Shown here: positions 1,952 through 9,552 of the stretch, one piece after another | Layout of the letters: every line of letters starts with the position of its first letter | How positions within the stretch are numbered: position 1 is the first letter of the stretch | Assembly (NCBI GenBank): GCA_021772075.1 | Contig: JAETNQ010000008.1 | Span: 1 to 64,000 of the forward strand | Origin: Lachnospiraceae bacterium | Lineage (GTDB): Bacteria; Bacillota; Clostridia; Lachnospirales; Lachnospiraceae | Length of the DNA stretch: 64,000 nt | Direction: 5' to 3' | Program-made: the position numbers and the translations under genes | Notes under the pieces: generated by a model | What the model was told of the DNA's origin: nothing | The model's database searches: none | Seen by the model: the letters and a program-made list of their open reading frames with translations, nothing else

Positions 1952-2008
1952 TAACACCTCCAATTTTGAAATATGATTATTTGCATTGTATTATAACAGA
2001 AAAAAGGA

Positions 2009-2048: not shown

Positions 2049-2085
2049 AAATAATAATTTGTTATTTGGAGGTTGTATGAATAGC
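2049..2085 (+). repeat. Left copy of perfect 37-bp inverted repeat (contains RBS and ATG)
   Basis: AAATAATAATTTGTTATTTGGAGGTTGTATGAATAGC, identical to the reverse complement of 3709-3745. Confidence 0.97.
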
Positions 2086-2163
2086 AAATTACAGATTTGT
2101 TGCAAAAAAATACAGCCCATAAGTGAGCTGCATTCATTAAAGTTATTTAATATGATGCAATAA
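2077..2163 (+). CDS. 28-aa ORF starting in the left inverted repeat (decoy ORF in current orientation)
   Basis: ATG in IR after GGAGG; MNSKLQICCKKIQPISELHSLKLFNMMQ. Confidence 0.4.
   Translation: MNSKLQICCKKIQPISELHSLKLFNMMQ
2104..2130 (-). terminator. Terminator of pentapeptide-repeat gene, lying inside the invertible segment
   Basis: Minus strand CAGCTC-ACTTAT-GGGCTG followed by TATTTTTTT. Confidence 0.6.
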
Positions 2164-3717
2164 TGTGGCTTCAATCCCATATTTTGATAATAACTGGTTT
2201 TTAATTTCAAGCTGTGCTTGTAAATCTTCTATAATATAACGAGATACTTCGTTCAGCTGTTTTTGCTGTTCATTTAATAGCTTTTGTTGTTCATTAATTT
2301 GATCCTGCTGTGTTCGAATCAACGATAATGAGGTGTTTTCAAACCCCTCTATAATATTGGAGTCAGGAGATGGATTCCGTTTCTCTTTTTGCTTTGAAGA
2401 AAACTGTCCGAATAGGCTGATACAATTATTTACAAATGATGTTACCGCATCTAACGGGGAAAATACCGCATTTATACTGTTTAAAACAGCCATCACTATG
2501 GGCCATTCCCCAATCATGGTATAAATAATTTCCCATGGACACTGGTGCTTCATTTCAATATTATATGTAATATTCCCTGCGCCAATAGCATCAAATAACT
2601 GTTCAATTTCACCAATAAGCAAGCCCAGCTTCTGGGAATCGGTATTTTCAATATTTGTTTGCAGGCGAAGTTCCAAAGTTGTTTTTTGCGAATCATTAAA
2701 TAGCAATAAATTCCGTATTGTACCAAGATGGATAAAATAGCTTTTCTTTTCAAACTCTGTCATAGGGCCAAAAGCAGTTGCGTCATAAATTCGATCATAA
2801 ATCGCCTGTAACTGTTCATTGGTAAAAATATGTCCATCCGCAGCGAGCTTGCATAAAAATTTCAACATGCGGAAATCTTTCTTCCGGGCAGCATTTTCAA
2901 TGCCCCTCCTGATAGTTTCATAAGCATGAAGCAAGTCGCCGCATGCCAGATAAATATTTGCAATAGGAAAATATTCTTCATAATGCTTAAAATAACTGAT
3001 TATATCCGGCAATAGCTGCTTATATTGGTCTGGATATAAAACAGGTCCGTTTTTCGTATCCGGCCCAATGTATACATCCTCATTTGTATGAAGGAAATAA
3101 TCTATTCCTCCAAAGACATAAGGAAGCTGGTAAAAAGGAAGAGAAACATGTTCCATATGAACTTGGGCAAATTCGGAGAAACATAAATTCAAATCACATA
3201 ATTCTACATTTTTAAAAGTGCAGTTACTAAATTTACTATTTTCTACCGTGGACATAGAGATAGTTACATCCTCAAATTTGGAATGATCAAAGGAAACGCT
3301 ATCCAATGTAGAATTTGAAATTTGAATTCCTCTGAATTCACAGTTTGAGAAATTTGAAAAACTAAAGTTAGTACCGATAAACGGCCTATATATATTATTA
3401 ACAAAATGACAGGAATCAAAATTACAATATTCTACATTTGTATGCTTATATTTGATATTTATAAAATCAGTCCGAACACATCGGGAATCGGCAAAAATAG
3501 CATTCGTAAAATCAGAATCGTTTACAGTACAGCCAACCAGACGAGAGCGGCGCAAATCTTCTGCAATATAATTGCCGGGAGGTATCGTAATATTTTCCGC
3601 ATTTTTAAAAACAGAAGAAAATATTGGCATGCTATATCCGCAATCTTTAATATGCTTTAAACTATTTTCAAAGTCTAGACTATCGCTTGGCAGAAATGGG
3701 TTTTGATAGCTATTCAT
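2143..3717 (-). CDS. Pentapeptide-repeat protein with C-terminal hydrophobic segment and coiled coil
   Basis: N-terminal A/C(N/D)(F/L)xx-type repeats (DFTNAIFADSRCVRTDFIN..., FSNCEFRGIQISNSTLDSVSFDHSKFEDV). Start in the right inverted repeat (RBS GGAGG, ATG 3717-3715). C-terminal QQKLLNEQQKQLNE coiled coil. Confidence 0.8.
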   Translation of the reverse strand: MNSYQNPFLPSDSLDFENSLKHIKDCGYSMPIFSSVFKNAENITIPPGNYIAEDLRRSRLVGCTVNDSDFTNAIFADSRCVRTDFINIKYKHTNVEYCNFDSCHFVNNIYRPFIGTNFSFSNFSNCEFRGIQISNSTLDSVSFDHSKFEDVTISMSTVENSKFSNCTFKNVELCDLNLCFSEFAQVHMEHVSLPFYQLPYVFGGIDYFLHTNEDVYIGPDTKNGPVLYPDQYKQLLPDIISYFKHYEEYFPIANIYLACGDLLHAYETIRRGIENAARKKDFRMLKFLCKLAADGHIFTNEQLQAIYDRIYDATAFGPMTEFEKKSYFIHLGTIRNLLLFNDSQKTTLELRLQTNIENTDSQKLGLLIGEIEQLFDAIGAGNITYNIEMKHQCPWEIIYTMIGEWPIVMAVLNSINAVFSPLDAVTSFVNNCISLFGQFSSKQKEKRNPSPDSNIIEGFENTSLSLIRTQQDQINEQQKLLNEQQKQLNEVSRYIIEDLQAQLEIKNQLLSKYGIEATLLHHIK

Positions 3718-3745
3718 ACAACCTCCAAATAACAAATTATTATTT
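3709..3745 (-). repeat. Right copy of perfect 37-bp inverted repeat (contains RBS and ATG of pentapeptide gene)
   Basis: Reverse complement identical to 2049-2085. Confidence 0.97.
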
Positions 3746-3769: not shown

Positions 3770-4888
3770 ATGGATGAAATATTAAGTAAAATTAATATAA
3801 GGTTGAGAAGGTTTAAACCGATTATGCGGAAAGGAGCCAACTATACAACCTGGATGGAAAATAAAGTATTGCAAGTGACGTATAAAAGCAGGGGATGCCG
3901 CAATTCGGCGTTAGGAAGCTGCCTGATGTGCGATTATGGAGCAGGAAGAAATTTGAATCTGGAAGAATGCACGCAAATCCTTCCGGAGGTTCTTTTGAGA
4001 GAAACAGGACATATTGAGGAACTGATATTGAATACATATGGAAGTTTCCTGGACGAATATGAAATTCCGAAAGAAAACCGGCATGCGGTTTTAATGCAGG
4101 TTGCAGAAACAAAGATCCCATATATTACTTTTGAAACACACTATAAAACAGTAACAAAAGAGTGTATTGAAGAAATTCAAAGAGTGATTGGGGATAGGGA
4201 TATTGCATATGAAATGGGATTGGAATCGGTAAATCCTTATGTGCTGCATAATTGTTTGAATAAGGATATCAATCTGGAAGAGTTGAAAGAATGTATCCGG
4301 TTAATTCACAATTACCATCATGCCGTAATTTTTAATATCTTATACGGAAGTCCATTTTTAAGTGAAAGGCATCAAATGGAAGATGTGCTGCAGTCAATTC
4401 AATGGGCATATGAACAGGATGTGGAGGTAATCGTGCTTTTTCCTGTAAACATAAAGCCGTTTACAGCATTGGAGCATTTATACCGGGGCGGGTTTTACCA
4501 GCCGGTTTCCCATTGGGGGTTTATAAAATTATTGGATGCTGTTCCAGAGAACATTTTAAACAGAATTAGTATTGCATGGTATGGAAATCGTGAGATTAAA
4601 TACGATAGTTATGATTTTGCCCCCGTTCTGCCAATCTCATGCAAAGTGTGCCATGAGGCCATTATGGAATTTTATAAAAATTTTATTAAAAACAGGGATA
4701 TGCAGCATAGAAAAGAGTTGTTGGGAAAAATGATGTCCCAACCTTTTGAGTGCGGATGCAGAAACCATGCATTGGATGCGTTAACCCACCCGGCAGTATC
4801 CGAAGACTTTCGTTCGGAGGCATTGGAATATTTAAAGAAAACGGTATTAAAGGATGGAAAGTATGCGATACCATGGAAAGAATATTGA
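3770..4888 (+). CDS. Radical SAM protein (RaSEA/TIGR01210-like)
   Basis: SRGCRNSALGSCLMCDYG: C-x7-C-x2-C radical SAM cluster; MGLESVNP motif. Confidence 0.75.
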   Translation: MDEILSKINIRLRRFKPIMRKGANYTTWMENKVLQVTYKSRGCRNSALGSCLMCDYGAGRNLNLEECTQILPEVLLRETGHIEELILNTYGSFLDEYEIPKENRHAVLMQVAETKIPYITFETHYKTVTKECIEEIQRVIGDRDIAYEMGLESVNPYVLHNCLNKDINLEELKECIRLIHNYHHAVIFNILYGSPFLSERHQMEDVLQSIQWAYEQDVEVIVLFPVNIKPFTALEHLYRGGFYQPVSHWGFIKLLDAVPENILNRISIAWYGNREIKYDSYDFAPVLPISCKVCHEAIMEFYKNFIKNRDMQHRKELLGKMMSQPFECGCRNHALDALTHPAVSEDFRSEALEYLKKTVLKDGKYAIPWKEY

Positions 4889-5750
4889 TACTTTTGAGAA
4901 TGCGCTATCTATGCTTTATAGAAACAGCGGTTATATACCGGAAAAGCATGCGGACTGCATTTCAGGGAGGGCGTTTGTCTTTAAAGCAGAGCAGAATGAC
5001 TTGAAAAATTGGTTGTCATCGGGAGTGGCTGTGGATGATGCAGTACGGAAGGTTGCCGCATATAATAATCTTTTACAAGAAACGGATATTTTTTATAGTA
5101 TAGAGGACTGCTGCCGGGCAATGGAATGGGGATGCTTCCTTGGGCCGGTAGATATTCTGGCGCAGGATGATATACAATCATTTTATTATAACGGGAAAAG
5201 AAGATATTTATATGTTTGCGGACAAAAGGACGGGATATATGCTGTTCATGATCCTGAAGGATTTCCGCTAAGATTATATAGAAAGGAAGAATTGCTGCAA
5301 GAATATGATCTGAGCCAAAGCATAGCGGTAAGGATGCGTTCTGGCGGCTGCCAGAAAAAGAAGGCGCTTATAGCCGATGTCATCAGATATCAGCTGATTC
5401 ATAGAAGGTCTAAAGAGAATTGGGATCTTGAAGGCGACATGGGAAGCTGGCTGTATTCCGGGGGAGGAAGAAAAAAGGATCTGGCATTGCAATTTGGATG
5501 GAACTTATATCTGCACCAGATATGGAAAATTGTACAGATCCTTGAGACGGAGGGGCTGGGCGCAGAAGTATTTTGTGAGAAGCTGGAATATATGCTGGAA
5601 AAACTATATGGTTATGTATGGAAAGGAAACATGCTGGAGATTTTATTGTGGAGGAATAATTTTTGGAAATGCATGGAAGAGGCTGTGGGGATGGATGATA
5701 AATGGGGAGCAAGGGGCGAGGGGCATGATGCTGGAAGTAATGGACAGTGA
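4854..5750 (+). CDS. BtrH/C39-like protein, probably catalytically degenerate
   Basis: Aligns by eye to the 8632..9552 product around ENALSMLYRNSG and DGIYAVHDPEGFPL...RKEEL; overlaps upstream gene. Confidence 0.45.
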   Translation: MESMRYHGKNIDTFENALSMLYRNSGYIPEKHADCISGRAFVFKAEQNDLKNWLSSGVAVDDAVRKVAAYNNLLQETDIFYSIEDCCRAMEWGCFLGPVDILAQDDIQSFYYNGKRRYLYVCGQKDGIYAVHDPEGFPLRLYRKEELLQEYDLSQSIAVRMRSGGCQKKKALIADVIRYQLIHRRSKENWDLEGDMGSWLYSGGGRKKDLALQFGWNLYLHQIWKIVQILETEGLGAEVFCEKLEYMLEKLYGYVWKGNMLEILLWRNNFWKCMEEAVGMDDKWGARGEGHDAGSNGQ

Positions 5751-6891
5751 ACAACAGGAGAAAATAAAAAGCAATACGCCGTGTTATGTATTTGATGAGC
5801 GGCATTTTTATGAAACTATTCGCCAACTGCGGGATGAATGCGGACAGGGAGTAAATATCTGCTTTTCTATAAAAAGCAATCCATGGCTGGCACCGTATAT
5901 AGAACATTATGTTGATCAGGTGGAGGTTTGTTCGGAGGGAGAATTGGAATTGTGTGAAAGAGCCGGCATCAATATGGGATGTATTTTGGCAGGAGGTGTC
6001 AGCAAAAGTCTCAGAGAACTTGTACATATGATTAGGGCAGGGGTTGGAATGATTTCCATTGAATCCAGGCTTCAGTTGGAGTTGCTGGAACAGGCTTGCA
6101 GACAAGAGGAGAGTAGCTGCCGCTGTCTCCTGCGGGTTTCCAGCGGCAATCAATTTGGGATGCCGATAAAAGAAATTAAAAAAATTTTATCAGAAAGAAA
6201 AGAAACTTCTTTGGTACGCTTCGCAGGTCTGCATTACTATAGCGGAACCCAGAAAAGGTCGGCGAATGAGATTTTGAAAGAAATGGATGCCTTGGAAACG
6301 TTTGCAGATGAAATAGGAAGCTGTTTTGACAAGCAACCATTCATTATGGAATATGGGCCGGGGATAGGATATCCTTATTTTATAACAGATAAAAAGGAAT
6401 ATCATCGGGAAATAATCCGGACGATTTCCAAGCGCTGCTCCCGATGGGCGGAAAAATACCATTTTGTGTTTGAAGCAGGACGGATCTGCGCTTCGGAGGC
6501 AGGGGATTATATTACAAAGGTCGTGGATATAAAAAGAAATGAAGGAAAACTTTTTTATATAGTGGATGGGGGATGCCACCAATTAAAATATTATAATCAG
6601 TCGAATGGCTACAGAATACCGTATTTTGATGTGATCCATATAGAAAAAAGAACGAGGGGAAAGGCGGCTGCGACGGTAAATGGTTCTTTGTGTACAGCGG
6701 GAGATGTTTTGATGCGGGATGCAGAACTTGAAGAATGCGATATTGGAGACTTATTTGTATTCCATAATGTCGGCGCATATTCTTCAACAGAAGCAATGGC
6801 GCTTTTTTTAAGCAGAAAATATCCAGGCATTTTTGTTTGGGAGCAGAACCGGGAATTAAAGCAGATATTTCAGGGCAGGGTACTGCTTTGA
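5725..6891 (+). CDS. Fold-type III PLP decarboxylase (DAPDC/BtrK-like)
   Basis: PCYVFDERHFYETI, CFSIKSNPWLAPYI (PLP lysine), EVCSEGELELCERAG, GLHYYSGTQ, FEAGRICASEAGDYITKVVDIK; C-terminal DVLMRDAELEECDIGD. Confidence 0.85.
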   Translation: MMLEVMDSEQQEKIKSNTPCYVFDERHFYETIRQLRDECGQGVNICFSIKSNPWLAPYIEHYVDQVEVCSEGELELCERAGINMGCILAGGVSKSLRELVHMIRAGVGMISIESRLQLELLEQACRQEESSCRCLLRVSSGNQFGMPIKEIKKILSERKETSLVRFAGLHYYSGTQKRSANEILKEMDALETFADEIGSCFDKQPFIMEYGPGIGYPYFITDKKEYHREIIRTISKRCSRWAEKYHFVFEAGRICASEAGDYITKVVDIKRNEGKLFYIVDGGCHQLKYYNQSNGYRIPYFDVIHIEKRTRGKAAATVNGSLCTAGDVLMRDAELEECDIGDLFVFHNVGAYSSTEAMALFLSRKYPGIFVWEQNRELKQIFQGRVLL

Positions 6892-6924
6892 GAAATGCAC
6901 CAGAAAGATAAGAGGAGGATAGAA

Positions 6925-7212
6925 ATGAGAAAACGAATAGAGAAAAAGGTATTGGAGTTAGTGTATGAAACGATTGATAAAGGCGAAGATGTGCCTGGAG
7001 ATGTATTGGCGGATAGAGAGTCCATGTTAATGGATCTGGGATATGATTCTATTTCTATGATTCATCTTCAAGTGGAAATAGAAGATGAGTTCCGCTTCAT
7101 GTTTGATCCGGTAGAAGATGATTTTGAAGAAATTTTTTCTACGGTGGGCAAGTTGTGCGATTATGTGGTTCAGCGTGTAAAATCAGAAAAAAGCTGGCCG
7201 GGAATGGGGTGA
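6925..7212 (+). CDS. Acyl/peptidyl carrier protein
   Basis: LMDLGYDSISMIHLQVEIEDEF: phosphopantetheine DS motif; RBS GGAGG upstream of 6925. Confidence 0.85.
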   Translation: MRKRIEKKVLELVYETIDKGEDVPGDVLADRESMLMDLGYDSISMIHLQVEIEDEFRFMFDPVEDDFEEIFSTVGKLCDYVVQRVKSEKSWPGMG

Positions 7213-7219
7213 TGGCTGA

Positions 7220-8647
7220 ATGCTTTATCATCTGCTGATGGGAGGGAAGGAGGATTCAGAAAGGACGGCTCTCCATATTAAACGGGAAAAATATACTTTC
7301 TGTGAACTGCATAGATGGGCAAAAGCCTTTTCTGTATTTTTGCAAAATAAAGGGATTAGACAGGGAGACAGGGTTGCGATTATTGCTAATGTAAATATTG
7401 ATACAGTTATTGCAATTCTAGGCTGCATCTTTTACGGTGCAGTCTTTGTTCCGATAGATGCAAGATTTTATAAAGAAAACGATTGCCGGATTGCGAAGGA
7501 AATTGAAGCAAAGCTTATAATAAATGGTCTTCCGCAAGAACTAATGAAAAGCAGCATGTCGTATGAAAATAGAATCAGGGAAAGGATGAATGAGAAAGCA
7601 CAGGTTTACATTTTATATACATCTGGTTCAACAAGCAGGCCTAAAGGTATAATAGCATGTGTGCGGCAGGTGGTGTTCTGTATAGAGAAGATTAATTTAA
7701 GGCTGCAAAATGGTACGGAGGATAAGATTTTGTGTGCGATTCCACTTTCCTTTGATTATGGATTATATCAAATATTTCTATCTTTGGCTTCCGGATCAGA
7801 GTTATACTTGGAGGATGGCAGGGTTTTACAACATCTTCCGGGAATTTTGCAAAAGGAGGGTATCACTGCGTTTCCAGCCGTTCCGTCTATGCTCGCCTTG
7901 CTATGCCGTGCAAAGCTTTTGCAAAGAGTAAAGCTGCCTTGTCTGCGCTATATTTGTTGGACAGGGGATCGGTTAAGCCTGCGGATCGTTGAAGAACTCC
8001 ATAGCGTTTTTCCAGATGTGGAACTTTTGCCGATGTATGGCTTGACAGAATGCAAACGAGTATCCATCATGCCGTTGAATTGTTATGAAAAAACAAAAAG
8101 GGGTTCCTGTGGATTGCCGTTGGATGACGTTCAAGTATGTTTGCAGAATGTGGACAGTAATAGGGTGGGAGAACTCATTGTAATTGGTGAAAATGTAATG
8201 GAAGCTATTGGAAAAGATGAAACATTTTCTATAGATCCAATGACAGGACAAAGAATGTTGAAAACAGGCGATCTGTTTTTTATAGATGAGGATGGTTTTT
8301 TATATTTTTACGGCCGTAAAAAAAGAATGATTAAATCTAATGGTTTTCGAATAGGAAATGCACAGATTGAAGGAATACTGGAAGTATTAGAAAGCGTATC
8401 GGAAGTCCGTATCGAAGGAATACCTGACGATGTATCAGGGGAGAGGATCGGCGCTGCTATTTTTGGCAACGAAGAAGCATTTCAGCAGGAATATGAGGGA
8501 ATAAAAGATAGCATATCCACTTTGTTGAGACCCCAGGTTTTTTACTTCAGCAGGAAGCCGTTGCCTAAAAATAAAAATGGAAAGTTTGACGATAAAAAGA
8601 TCAGCAGGATTCTTGCTGAAAGAGGGAGCAAATGGAACGGGAAATAA
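7220..8647 (+). CDS. Adenylate-forming enzyme (stand-alone NRPS-type A domain)
   Basis: VYILYTSGSTSRPKGI, MYGLTEC, KTGDLFFIDEDGFLYFYGRKKRMIKSNGFRIG, LPKNKNGKFD. Confidence 0.9.
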   Translation: MLYHLLMGGKEDSERTALHIKREKYTFCELHRWAKAFSVFLQNKGIRQGDRVAIIANVNIDTVIAILGCIFYGAVFVPIDARFYKENDCRIAKEIEAKLIINGLPQELMKSSMSYENRIRERMNEKAQVYILYTSGSTSRPKGIIACVRQVVFCIEKINLRLQNGTEDKILCAIPLSFDYGLYQIFLSLASGSELYLEDGRVLQHLPGILQKEGITAFPAVPSMLALLCRAKLLQRVKLPCLRYICWTGDRLSLRIVEELHSVFPDVELLPMYGLTECKRVSIMPLNCYEKTKRGSCGLPLDDVQVCLQNVDSNRVGELIVIGENVMEAIGKDETFSIDPMTGQRMLKTGDLFFIDEDGFLYFYGRKKRMIKSNGFRIGNAQIEGILEVLESVSEVRIEGIPDDVSGERIGAAIFGNEEAFQQEYEGIKDSISTLLRPQVFYFSRKPLPKNKNGKFDDKKISRILAERGSKWNGK

Positions 8648-9552
8648 AATATTATATTGGCAAAAATACATTTTGTGCTTCCTATGCGGTTTTGAATGCA
8701 GCTGGATGCGAGGGAGATGCGGAATTATTTGAATTGTCAATGGGAATACCCTTCGGAATCAAATGCGTGGATATGAAAAGCGAGAGGTTTTTAACCCCTT
8801 ACCGCAATCCGAATGATGGAATTGACATAGCGGCGGCTATGTGGGGAATTCCAGTCCATAAGTTTATATTTGATCAAAAAGATCTGGCATTTGCCCAGCT
8901 GTGCAGGGAATTAGAGAGGGGATGCAATATCGTTCTTGGACCGCTGAATATGGGAAAATTATTTTATATTCCGTTATGCAGCTTGTATGAAGGAGTTGAT
9001 CATTATATACAACTGCGGAAGACAAGAAATGATATTTTTGTGATAAGGGATTCAGAGGGCTATGTTTTAGTCCCGGTAACACGTAAAGAATTATACAAAA
9101 TGTGGAATGTGGACGGGGTATATGAGGCAGAGGGAAAGTATACATTCCGTAGCATAGGGACGCAAAATAAGATGCCGGGGAGGTACTTTACCCGTGTGGG
9201 GCAGCTGCTGGAAATTATATATAAACAGATGAAGCAGAATTTAAAACAGGCTGAGCAGTCTGGGCAGGGGTCCCGGGCGTTTTCAAATGTTTTTGAAATT
9301 TTGAAAATGTATAATGTGAATAAATGGAAACTGAGTTTTTTATATGAACTGGAGCATTTGATTCAAAGAAAAATGCTGGCGCTTTATTTTTTTGAAGAGA
9401 TAAAGAATATGAAATGCGAGGAAAACAAAATTGTGAAAGAACAAATTTATTTAATAGCTTGTCTGTATCGTGAGATAAAGAGGAAAAATATAATTGAGGA
9501 AGAACGGCTTTTGCAGCTTGGGGAACTGGAGCGGCAGTTAGGCGAAGTTTAA
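8632..9552 (+). CDS. BtrH/C39-like acyltransferase or cysteine-hydrolase-fold protein
   Basis: KNTFCASYAVLNAAG (Cys), EGVDHYIQL (His), FVIRDSEGY (Asp). Confidence 0.5.
   Translation: MEREIKYYIGKNTFCASYAVLNAAGCEGDAELFELSMGIPFGIKCVDMKSERFLTPYRNPNDGIDIAAAMWGIPVHKFIFDQKDLAFAQLCRELERGCNIVLGPLNMGKLFYIPLCSLYEGVDHYIQLRKTRNDIFVIRDSEGYVLVPVTRKELYKMWNVDGVYEAEGKYTFRSIGTQNKMPGRYFTRVGQLLEIIYKQMKQNLKQAEQSGQGSRAFSNVFEILKMYNVNKWKLSFLYELEHLIQRKMLALYFFEEIKNMKCEENKIVKEQIYLIACLYREIKRKNIIEEERLLQLGELERQLGEV

Follow-up and report, generated by a model that had tools for sequence, protein, structure and literature searches.

A likely gene-flipping cassette with the start signal of a pentapeptide-repeat gene in its recombination sites, and its relatives paired with radical-SAM enzymes

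Most described bacterial inversion switches either flip a promoter or shuffle genes for surface proteins and specificity subunits. Nearest in mechanism to the locus considered here are the mba/UU376 and UU172/UU171 loci of Ureaplasma, in which inversion at short inverted repeats, one of them situated in the 5' region of the gene, alternates two opposed ORFs behind one promoter region (PMC3047005). In the stretch of 64,000 nucleotides of a Lachnospiraceae genome analysed here (contig JAETNQ010000008.1, positions 1 to 64,000; hereafter the window), a segment of 1.7 kb is likely to be a gene-flipping cassette. It would belong to a recurrent family of switches based on site-specific inversion, whose typical members would likewise alternate two opposed ORFs. 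For the window itself we infer the inversion, the use of the promoter and the expression states from the arrangement of the sequence elements described below.

The segment is bounded by an inverted repeat, the arms of which, at 2049-2085 (forward strand) and 3709-3745 (reverse strand), are complementary at 37 of 37 positions (100%), bearing out the initial annotation of a perfect 37-bp repeat around one complete gene. A 25-bp probe taken from the arm and allowed up to 3 mismatches matches the 3.48-Mb genome at the two arms only and finds nothing in shuffled versions of the window; when the locus itself was shuffled 60 times, the best inverted repeat to arise by chance scored 13, as against 37 for the actual one. 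The probe and the shuffles thus rule out a chance origin of the repeat. Both arms contain TTATTTGGAGGTTGTATGAATAGC, and each carries, as had also been noted from the start, a ribosome-binding site and an inward-pointing ATG: GGAGG precedes the ATG at 2077 (+) in the left arm, which continues with the codons AAT AGC, and likewise the ATG at 3717 (-) in the identical right arm. The same arms hold the putative recombination sites, each with an ATAA-N7-TTAT core, the window site reading AAATAA/TAATTTG/TTATTTGG. The 7-bp spacer TAATTTG, at 2055-2061 (+) in the left site and 3733-3739 (-) in the right, is the predicted crossover region.

The single complete gene between the arms (2143-3717, reverse strand) encodes a pentapeptide-repeat protein of 524 aa (Pfam PF13599/PF00805), and its start codon is the ATG of the right arm. 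Sequence and predicted fold alike assign the repeat part to the Qnr/MfpA-like solenoids; about 300 aa are added at the C-terminus, a region that matches no Pfam family and is predicted, with low model confidence, to be mostly helical. Identity as a Qnr-type gyrase-protecting protein was considered and rejected, the protein falling far short of the curated cut-offs of all Qnr/MfpA models (26.3 bits where 240 are required). The plasmids searched held no relatives of it. From the ATG of the left arm, a 28-codon ORF (2077-2163, forward strand; MNSKLQICC...) runs into the segment, and is possibly the relic of a lost partner gene.

As the sole protein query, the pentapeptide gene of the window gave no matches in the genome contigs. 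The family was recovered by searching with an alignment of three pentapeptide homologues, which yielded, after removal of duplicates, 16 other loci from Lachnospiraceae, Flavonifractor, Bacilli and one member of the Bacteroidales. One of these (L038 7923-9423) has the pentapeptide gene in two overlapping frames, reflecting a frameshift or a sequencing error. Every locus assembled as far as its other end has a radical-SAM gene there, in convergent orientation to the pentapeptide gene. In 14 of the 16 loci this partner is an ATP-grasp/radical-SAM fusion of about 760 aa, though in L033 the fusion gene is split and L041 has a truncated copy; L043 has a different radical-SAM protein as the partner, and the L036 contig is cut before the partner gene. 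Some loci carry further genes on the partner side, either a DUF4760 gene or a pair encoding a nitroreductase and a RaSEA-like radical-SAM protein. In Foldseek comparisons the N-terminal half of the fusion resembles PurK/biotin-carboxylase ATP-grasp folds; the radical-SAM half comes close to the MSMEG_0568 type, and a sequence search for a solved full-length relative found none. Searches of viral contigs recovered no relatives of the fusion, and plasmids matched it by the radical-SAM domain alone. The two genes also occur together across genomes: the full ATP-grasp/radical-SAM protein is present in 6 of 397 family genomes, and each of these six belongs to the set of eight in which the pentapeptide match is strong, an overlap with a chance probability near 1e-11 if the genomes are treated as independent. 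This conserved pairing points to a common function of the pentapeptide solenoid and the undescribed radical-SAM/ATP-grasp enzyme. A role of the pair in self-protection or in connection with an antibiotic is a possible candidate. Genes neighbouring the cassette in three loci (L040 3959-6590, L028 14681-17056 and L043 2245-7929) resemble defence genes, namely those for SIR2-like proteins, ThsA-type macro domains, type I methyltransferases and UvrD/GajB-like helicases. Despite these neighbours, a defence role for the pair is speculative, since PADLOC gave no confident match for the cassette proteins.

Inverted repeats beyond those of all shuffles occur in 14 of the 16 testable loci, the window included, and the two loci that fail the test are truncated contigs. 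The two arms precede the pentapeptide gene and the partner gene, respectively. The repeats measure 16 to 112 bp and differ in sequence, with ATAA-N7-TTAT recurring in 13 of the 14. Four loci (the window, L028, L042 and L044) have a start codon inside the repeat, making the inclusion of the RBS and ATG in the repeat a recurrent feature of the family; the repeats of L042 and L044 take in the first codons of both opposed genes as well. Recombinases of one clade, 45-79% identical and uninterrupted, adjoin the segment in nine other loci. Some of the loci have the recombinase upstream of the radical-SAM gene, whereas L036 has it upstream of the pentapeptide gene, and this variation in position indicates that both arrangements exist across genomes. 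Furthermore, three contigs (L030, 5639 bp; L034, 4367 bp; L044, 4377 bp) both start and end in repeat arms, and the L043 contig ends in one arm. As a repeat of 16-24 bp would not normally break an assembly, whereas coexisting orientations would break it at precisely these points, this assembly behaviour suggests that both orientations coexist in the relatives with repeat-bounded contigs. The common core, the adjacent recombinases, the repeat-ended contigs and the start codons inside repeats in four loci together support inversion of whole genes. The original proposal that the whole gene flips, rather than the promoter, is therefore strongly supported by the related loci, but needs to be amended in that the segment in the relatives is normally a two-gene, either/or cassette. 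The window lacks this layout: its pentapeptide gene stands alone between the sites, its radical-SAM gene lies outside the right arm, and the ATP-grasp/radical-SAM partner was not found in its genome.

We scanned the 130 bp outside each end of the segments for inward-directed promoters. Strong candidates (p <=0.04) were found in L016, L037, L038 and L042, in each at exactly one end, two of them on the partner side and two on the pentapeptide side. Such one-ended promoters, occurring on either side, are what one would expect of a promoter fixed outside the segment if the genomes include both orientations. In the window, a promoter-like TTGAAA-17-TATTAT (1966-1994, forward strand) lies to the left of the left arm and points into the segment. 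With p=0.26 against shuffles it is not significant on its own, and we treat it as a candidate rather than as an established element. The pentapeptide gene points away from this sole inward promoter candidate, so it is probably OFF as assembled. When the segment is inverted in silico, the pentapeptide ATG comes to lie 83 nt downstream of the candidate -10 element with the RBS-ATG junction and the reading frame kept, just as the initial annotation had anticipated for the junction. The gene is followed by an intrinsic terminator (2098-2140, reverse strand; -14.6 kcal/mol, z -3.9, with a U tract thereafter) that is present on the sense strand only; weak terminator-like matches elsewhere on the antisense strand are near chance level.

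The mechanism that we propose is one in which a XerC/D-type tyrosine recombinase would recombine the two inverted ATAA-N7-TTAT sites, between which a typical cassette would hold a pentapeptide gene head-on to a radical-SAM gene or operon. Inversion would then select which gene sits behind a promoter fixed outside one end, and the RBS and start codon in the sites, where present, would allow one and the same leader to be linked to either gene. The window would represent a reduced form, with the pentapeptide gene inside and the radical-SAM operon just beyond the right site. This operon begins with the gene for a RaSEA-like radical SAM protein (3770-4888, forward strand) and continues with downstream genes on the same strand (4854-9552) for a protein from an ORF without assignment, a PLP-dependent decarboxylase, an acyl carrier protein, an AMP ligase and a further such ORF. 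These downstream genes probably form one operon, and 3770-9552 as a whole is a probable biosynthetic operon that matches no known pathway. In the assembled orientation, the terminator hairpin would have no effect on transcription from the 1966-1994 candidate promoter; a flip would turn the pentapeptide gene ON and bring the terminator, which is one-way, to a position after that promoter and ahead of the radical-SAM operon at 3770. Given this placement of the terminator after a flip, the either/or logic may persist in the window even with the radical-SAM genes outside the sites.

It is quite possible, if not our preferred view, that the window instead has a simple ON/OFF switch of the pentapeptide gene alone, next to which the radical-SAM operon is independent and only incidentally placed. 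The presence of just one complete gene between the sites is what such a switch would look like; the left arm opens nothing beyond the 28-codon ORF, and the outside promoter and the operon are about 1.7 kb apart, with antisense sequence in between. However, homologues of the 3770-4888 protein occur inside the invertible segment in four relatives (L015, L030, L031 and L037), and another is found inside the truncated cluster L033. Moreover, in the sample of 397 family genomes the RaSEA-like protein is encoded only alongside a pentapeptide gene (two genomes, both with the latter), and the terminator, being orientation-dependent, would shield the operon in just one of the two states. These observations speak against an incidental adjacency.

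The recombinase adds a further twist. The initial annotation placed a tyrosine recombinase gene directly outside the left repeat, and the gene there is indeed XerC/D-like, but it is not intact, being split by a group II intron. The contiguous recombinase ORF (1142-1963) stops just past the HxxR box. On the reverse strand, the first exon (1165-1948) starts with a TTG at 1948 preceded by GGAGGTG, and is followed by an ORF-less intron of 668 nt (497-1164) and a second exon (348-496) that supplies the second catalytic His and the Tyr nucleophile. The intron is identified as a group II intron by its D1-D4 structure (RF02004, 936-1116; 126.8 bits), its domain V/VI structure (RF00029, 497-582; 59 bits) and the in-frame join of the exons: removal of 1164-497 in silico yields a complete recombinase that can be aligned over its whole length with its counterparts in related loci, with the caveat that even this spliced form is only about 30% identical to them. 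The catalytic set R-K-HxxR-H-Y is complete only in the product spliced in silico, and inversion by the local recombinase would thus require splicing of the intron. The intron is single-copy in the genome. Group II maturase domains occur in three genes elsewhere in the genome, surrounded by introns of other Rfam structural types, and no maturase of the class of the window intron was found there.

Elsewhere in the same genome, another contig (C54) has at its end an intact recombinase of the main clade (79092-80143; L063 7092-8143), 48% identical to that of L015. The contig breaks off at GGATAATACCAAATTATA, which has the same ATAA-N7-TTAT core. A contig end at such a site beside an intact recombinase makes a second invertible locus in this genome likely, and it is possible that this recombinase acts in trans on the window sites.

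These features raise the prospect of a frozen relic, that is, a family that is invertible elsewhere with the switch of the window locked by the intron and the loss of the partner, its 37-bp repeats having been recently inherited. The unspliced recombinase without the second His and Tyr, the want of an intron-encoded protein of the same class in the genome and the undetected partner gene would all accord with such a history. Nevertheless, we consider it rather unlikely: joined in frame, the exons encode a complete XerC/D-like protein in which no catalytic residue is missing, indicating that neither exon has decayed; D1 and D5/D6 of the intron score well; the two arms have kept perfect identity even outside the core; and the intact main-clade recombinase might serve in trans. 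On the reading of a functional cassette, one may go a step further and tentatively posit that widespread invertible cassettes of Firmicutes and Bacteroidota make the expression of the pentapeptide protein and of the radical-SAM enzyme, in most cases one fused to ATP-grasp, mutually exclusive, and that in the window flipping is gated by splicing of the intron from the recombinase mRNA. We regard this full version as somewhat doubtful. Least probable by far is that the repeats are a leader duplicated by a mobile element or a gene duplication with no inversion at all; the RBS and start codon in the repeat do recall a duplicated gene start, but the ATAA-N7-TTAT core in 13 of 14 otherwise unrelated repeats, the tyrosine recombinase beside most loci and the contigs bounded by repeats argue strongly against it.

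The gene-flipping cassettes thus appear to set two unrelated genes of intracellular type against each other, and their common core and adjacent recombinases render the family easy to find and test. The literature searched, with partial coverage, offered no inversion switch paired with a pentapeptide-repeat gene, and the pentapeptide/radical-SAM inversion cassettes are apparently an undescribed family. Gene-swapping by site-specific inversion is already known; what is new here is the gene pair and the start codon built into the site. Compared with the loci of Ureaplasma, a member of the Mollicutes, where surface antigens alternate, two proteins of cytoplasmic type, a pentapeptide solenoid and a radical-SAM enzyme, would alternate here; the former fuse a 5' coding region to either ORF, whereas here the RBS and start codon alone are shared; and the cassette family, unlike Ureaplasma, has a dedicated recombinase adjacent in most loci. 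Promoter invertons such as fimS and the C. difficile flg, cwpV and cmr switches resemble the cassettes in their tyrosine recombinases, short inverted repeats and ON/OFF logic, but they flip a promoter or leader, whereas here whole genes would flip with the promoter outside. Gene-altering inversions and shufflons (hsdS, Rci), like the cassettes, invert coding DNA against a fixed expression site; however, there recombination within homologous coding regions alters protein specificity, whereas the cassettes would exchange two unrelated proteins. Finally, the window protein shares the right-handed pentapeptide-repeat solenoid of Qnr, MfpA and AlbG, but differs from them in its length of 524 aa, which includes the additional C-terminal region.
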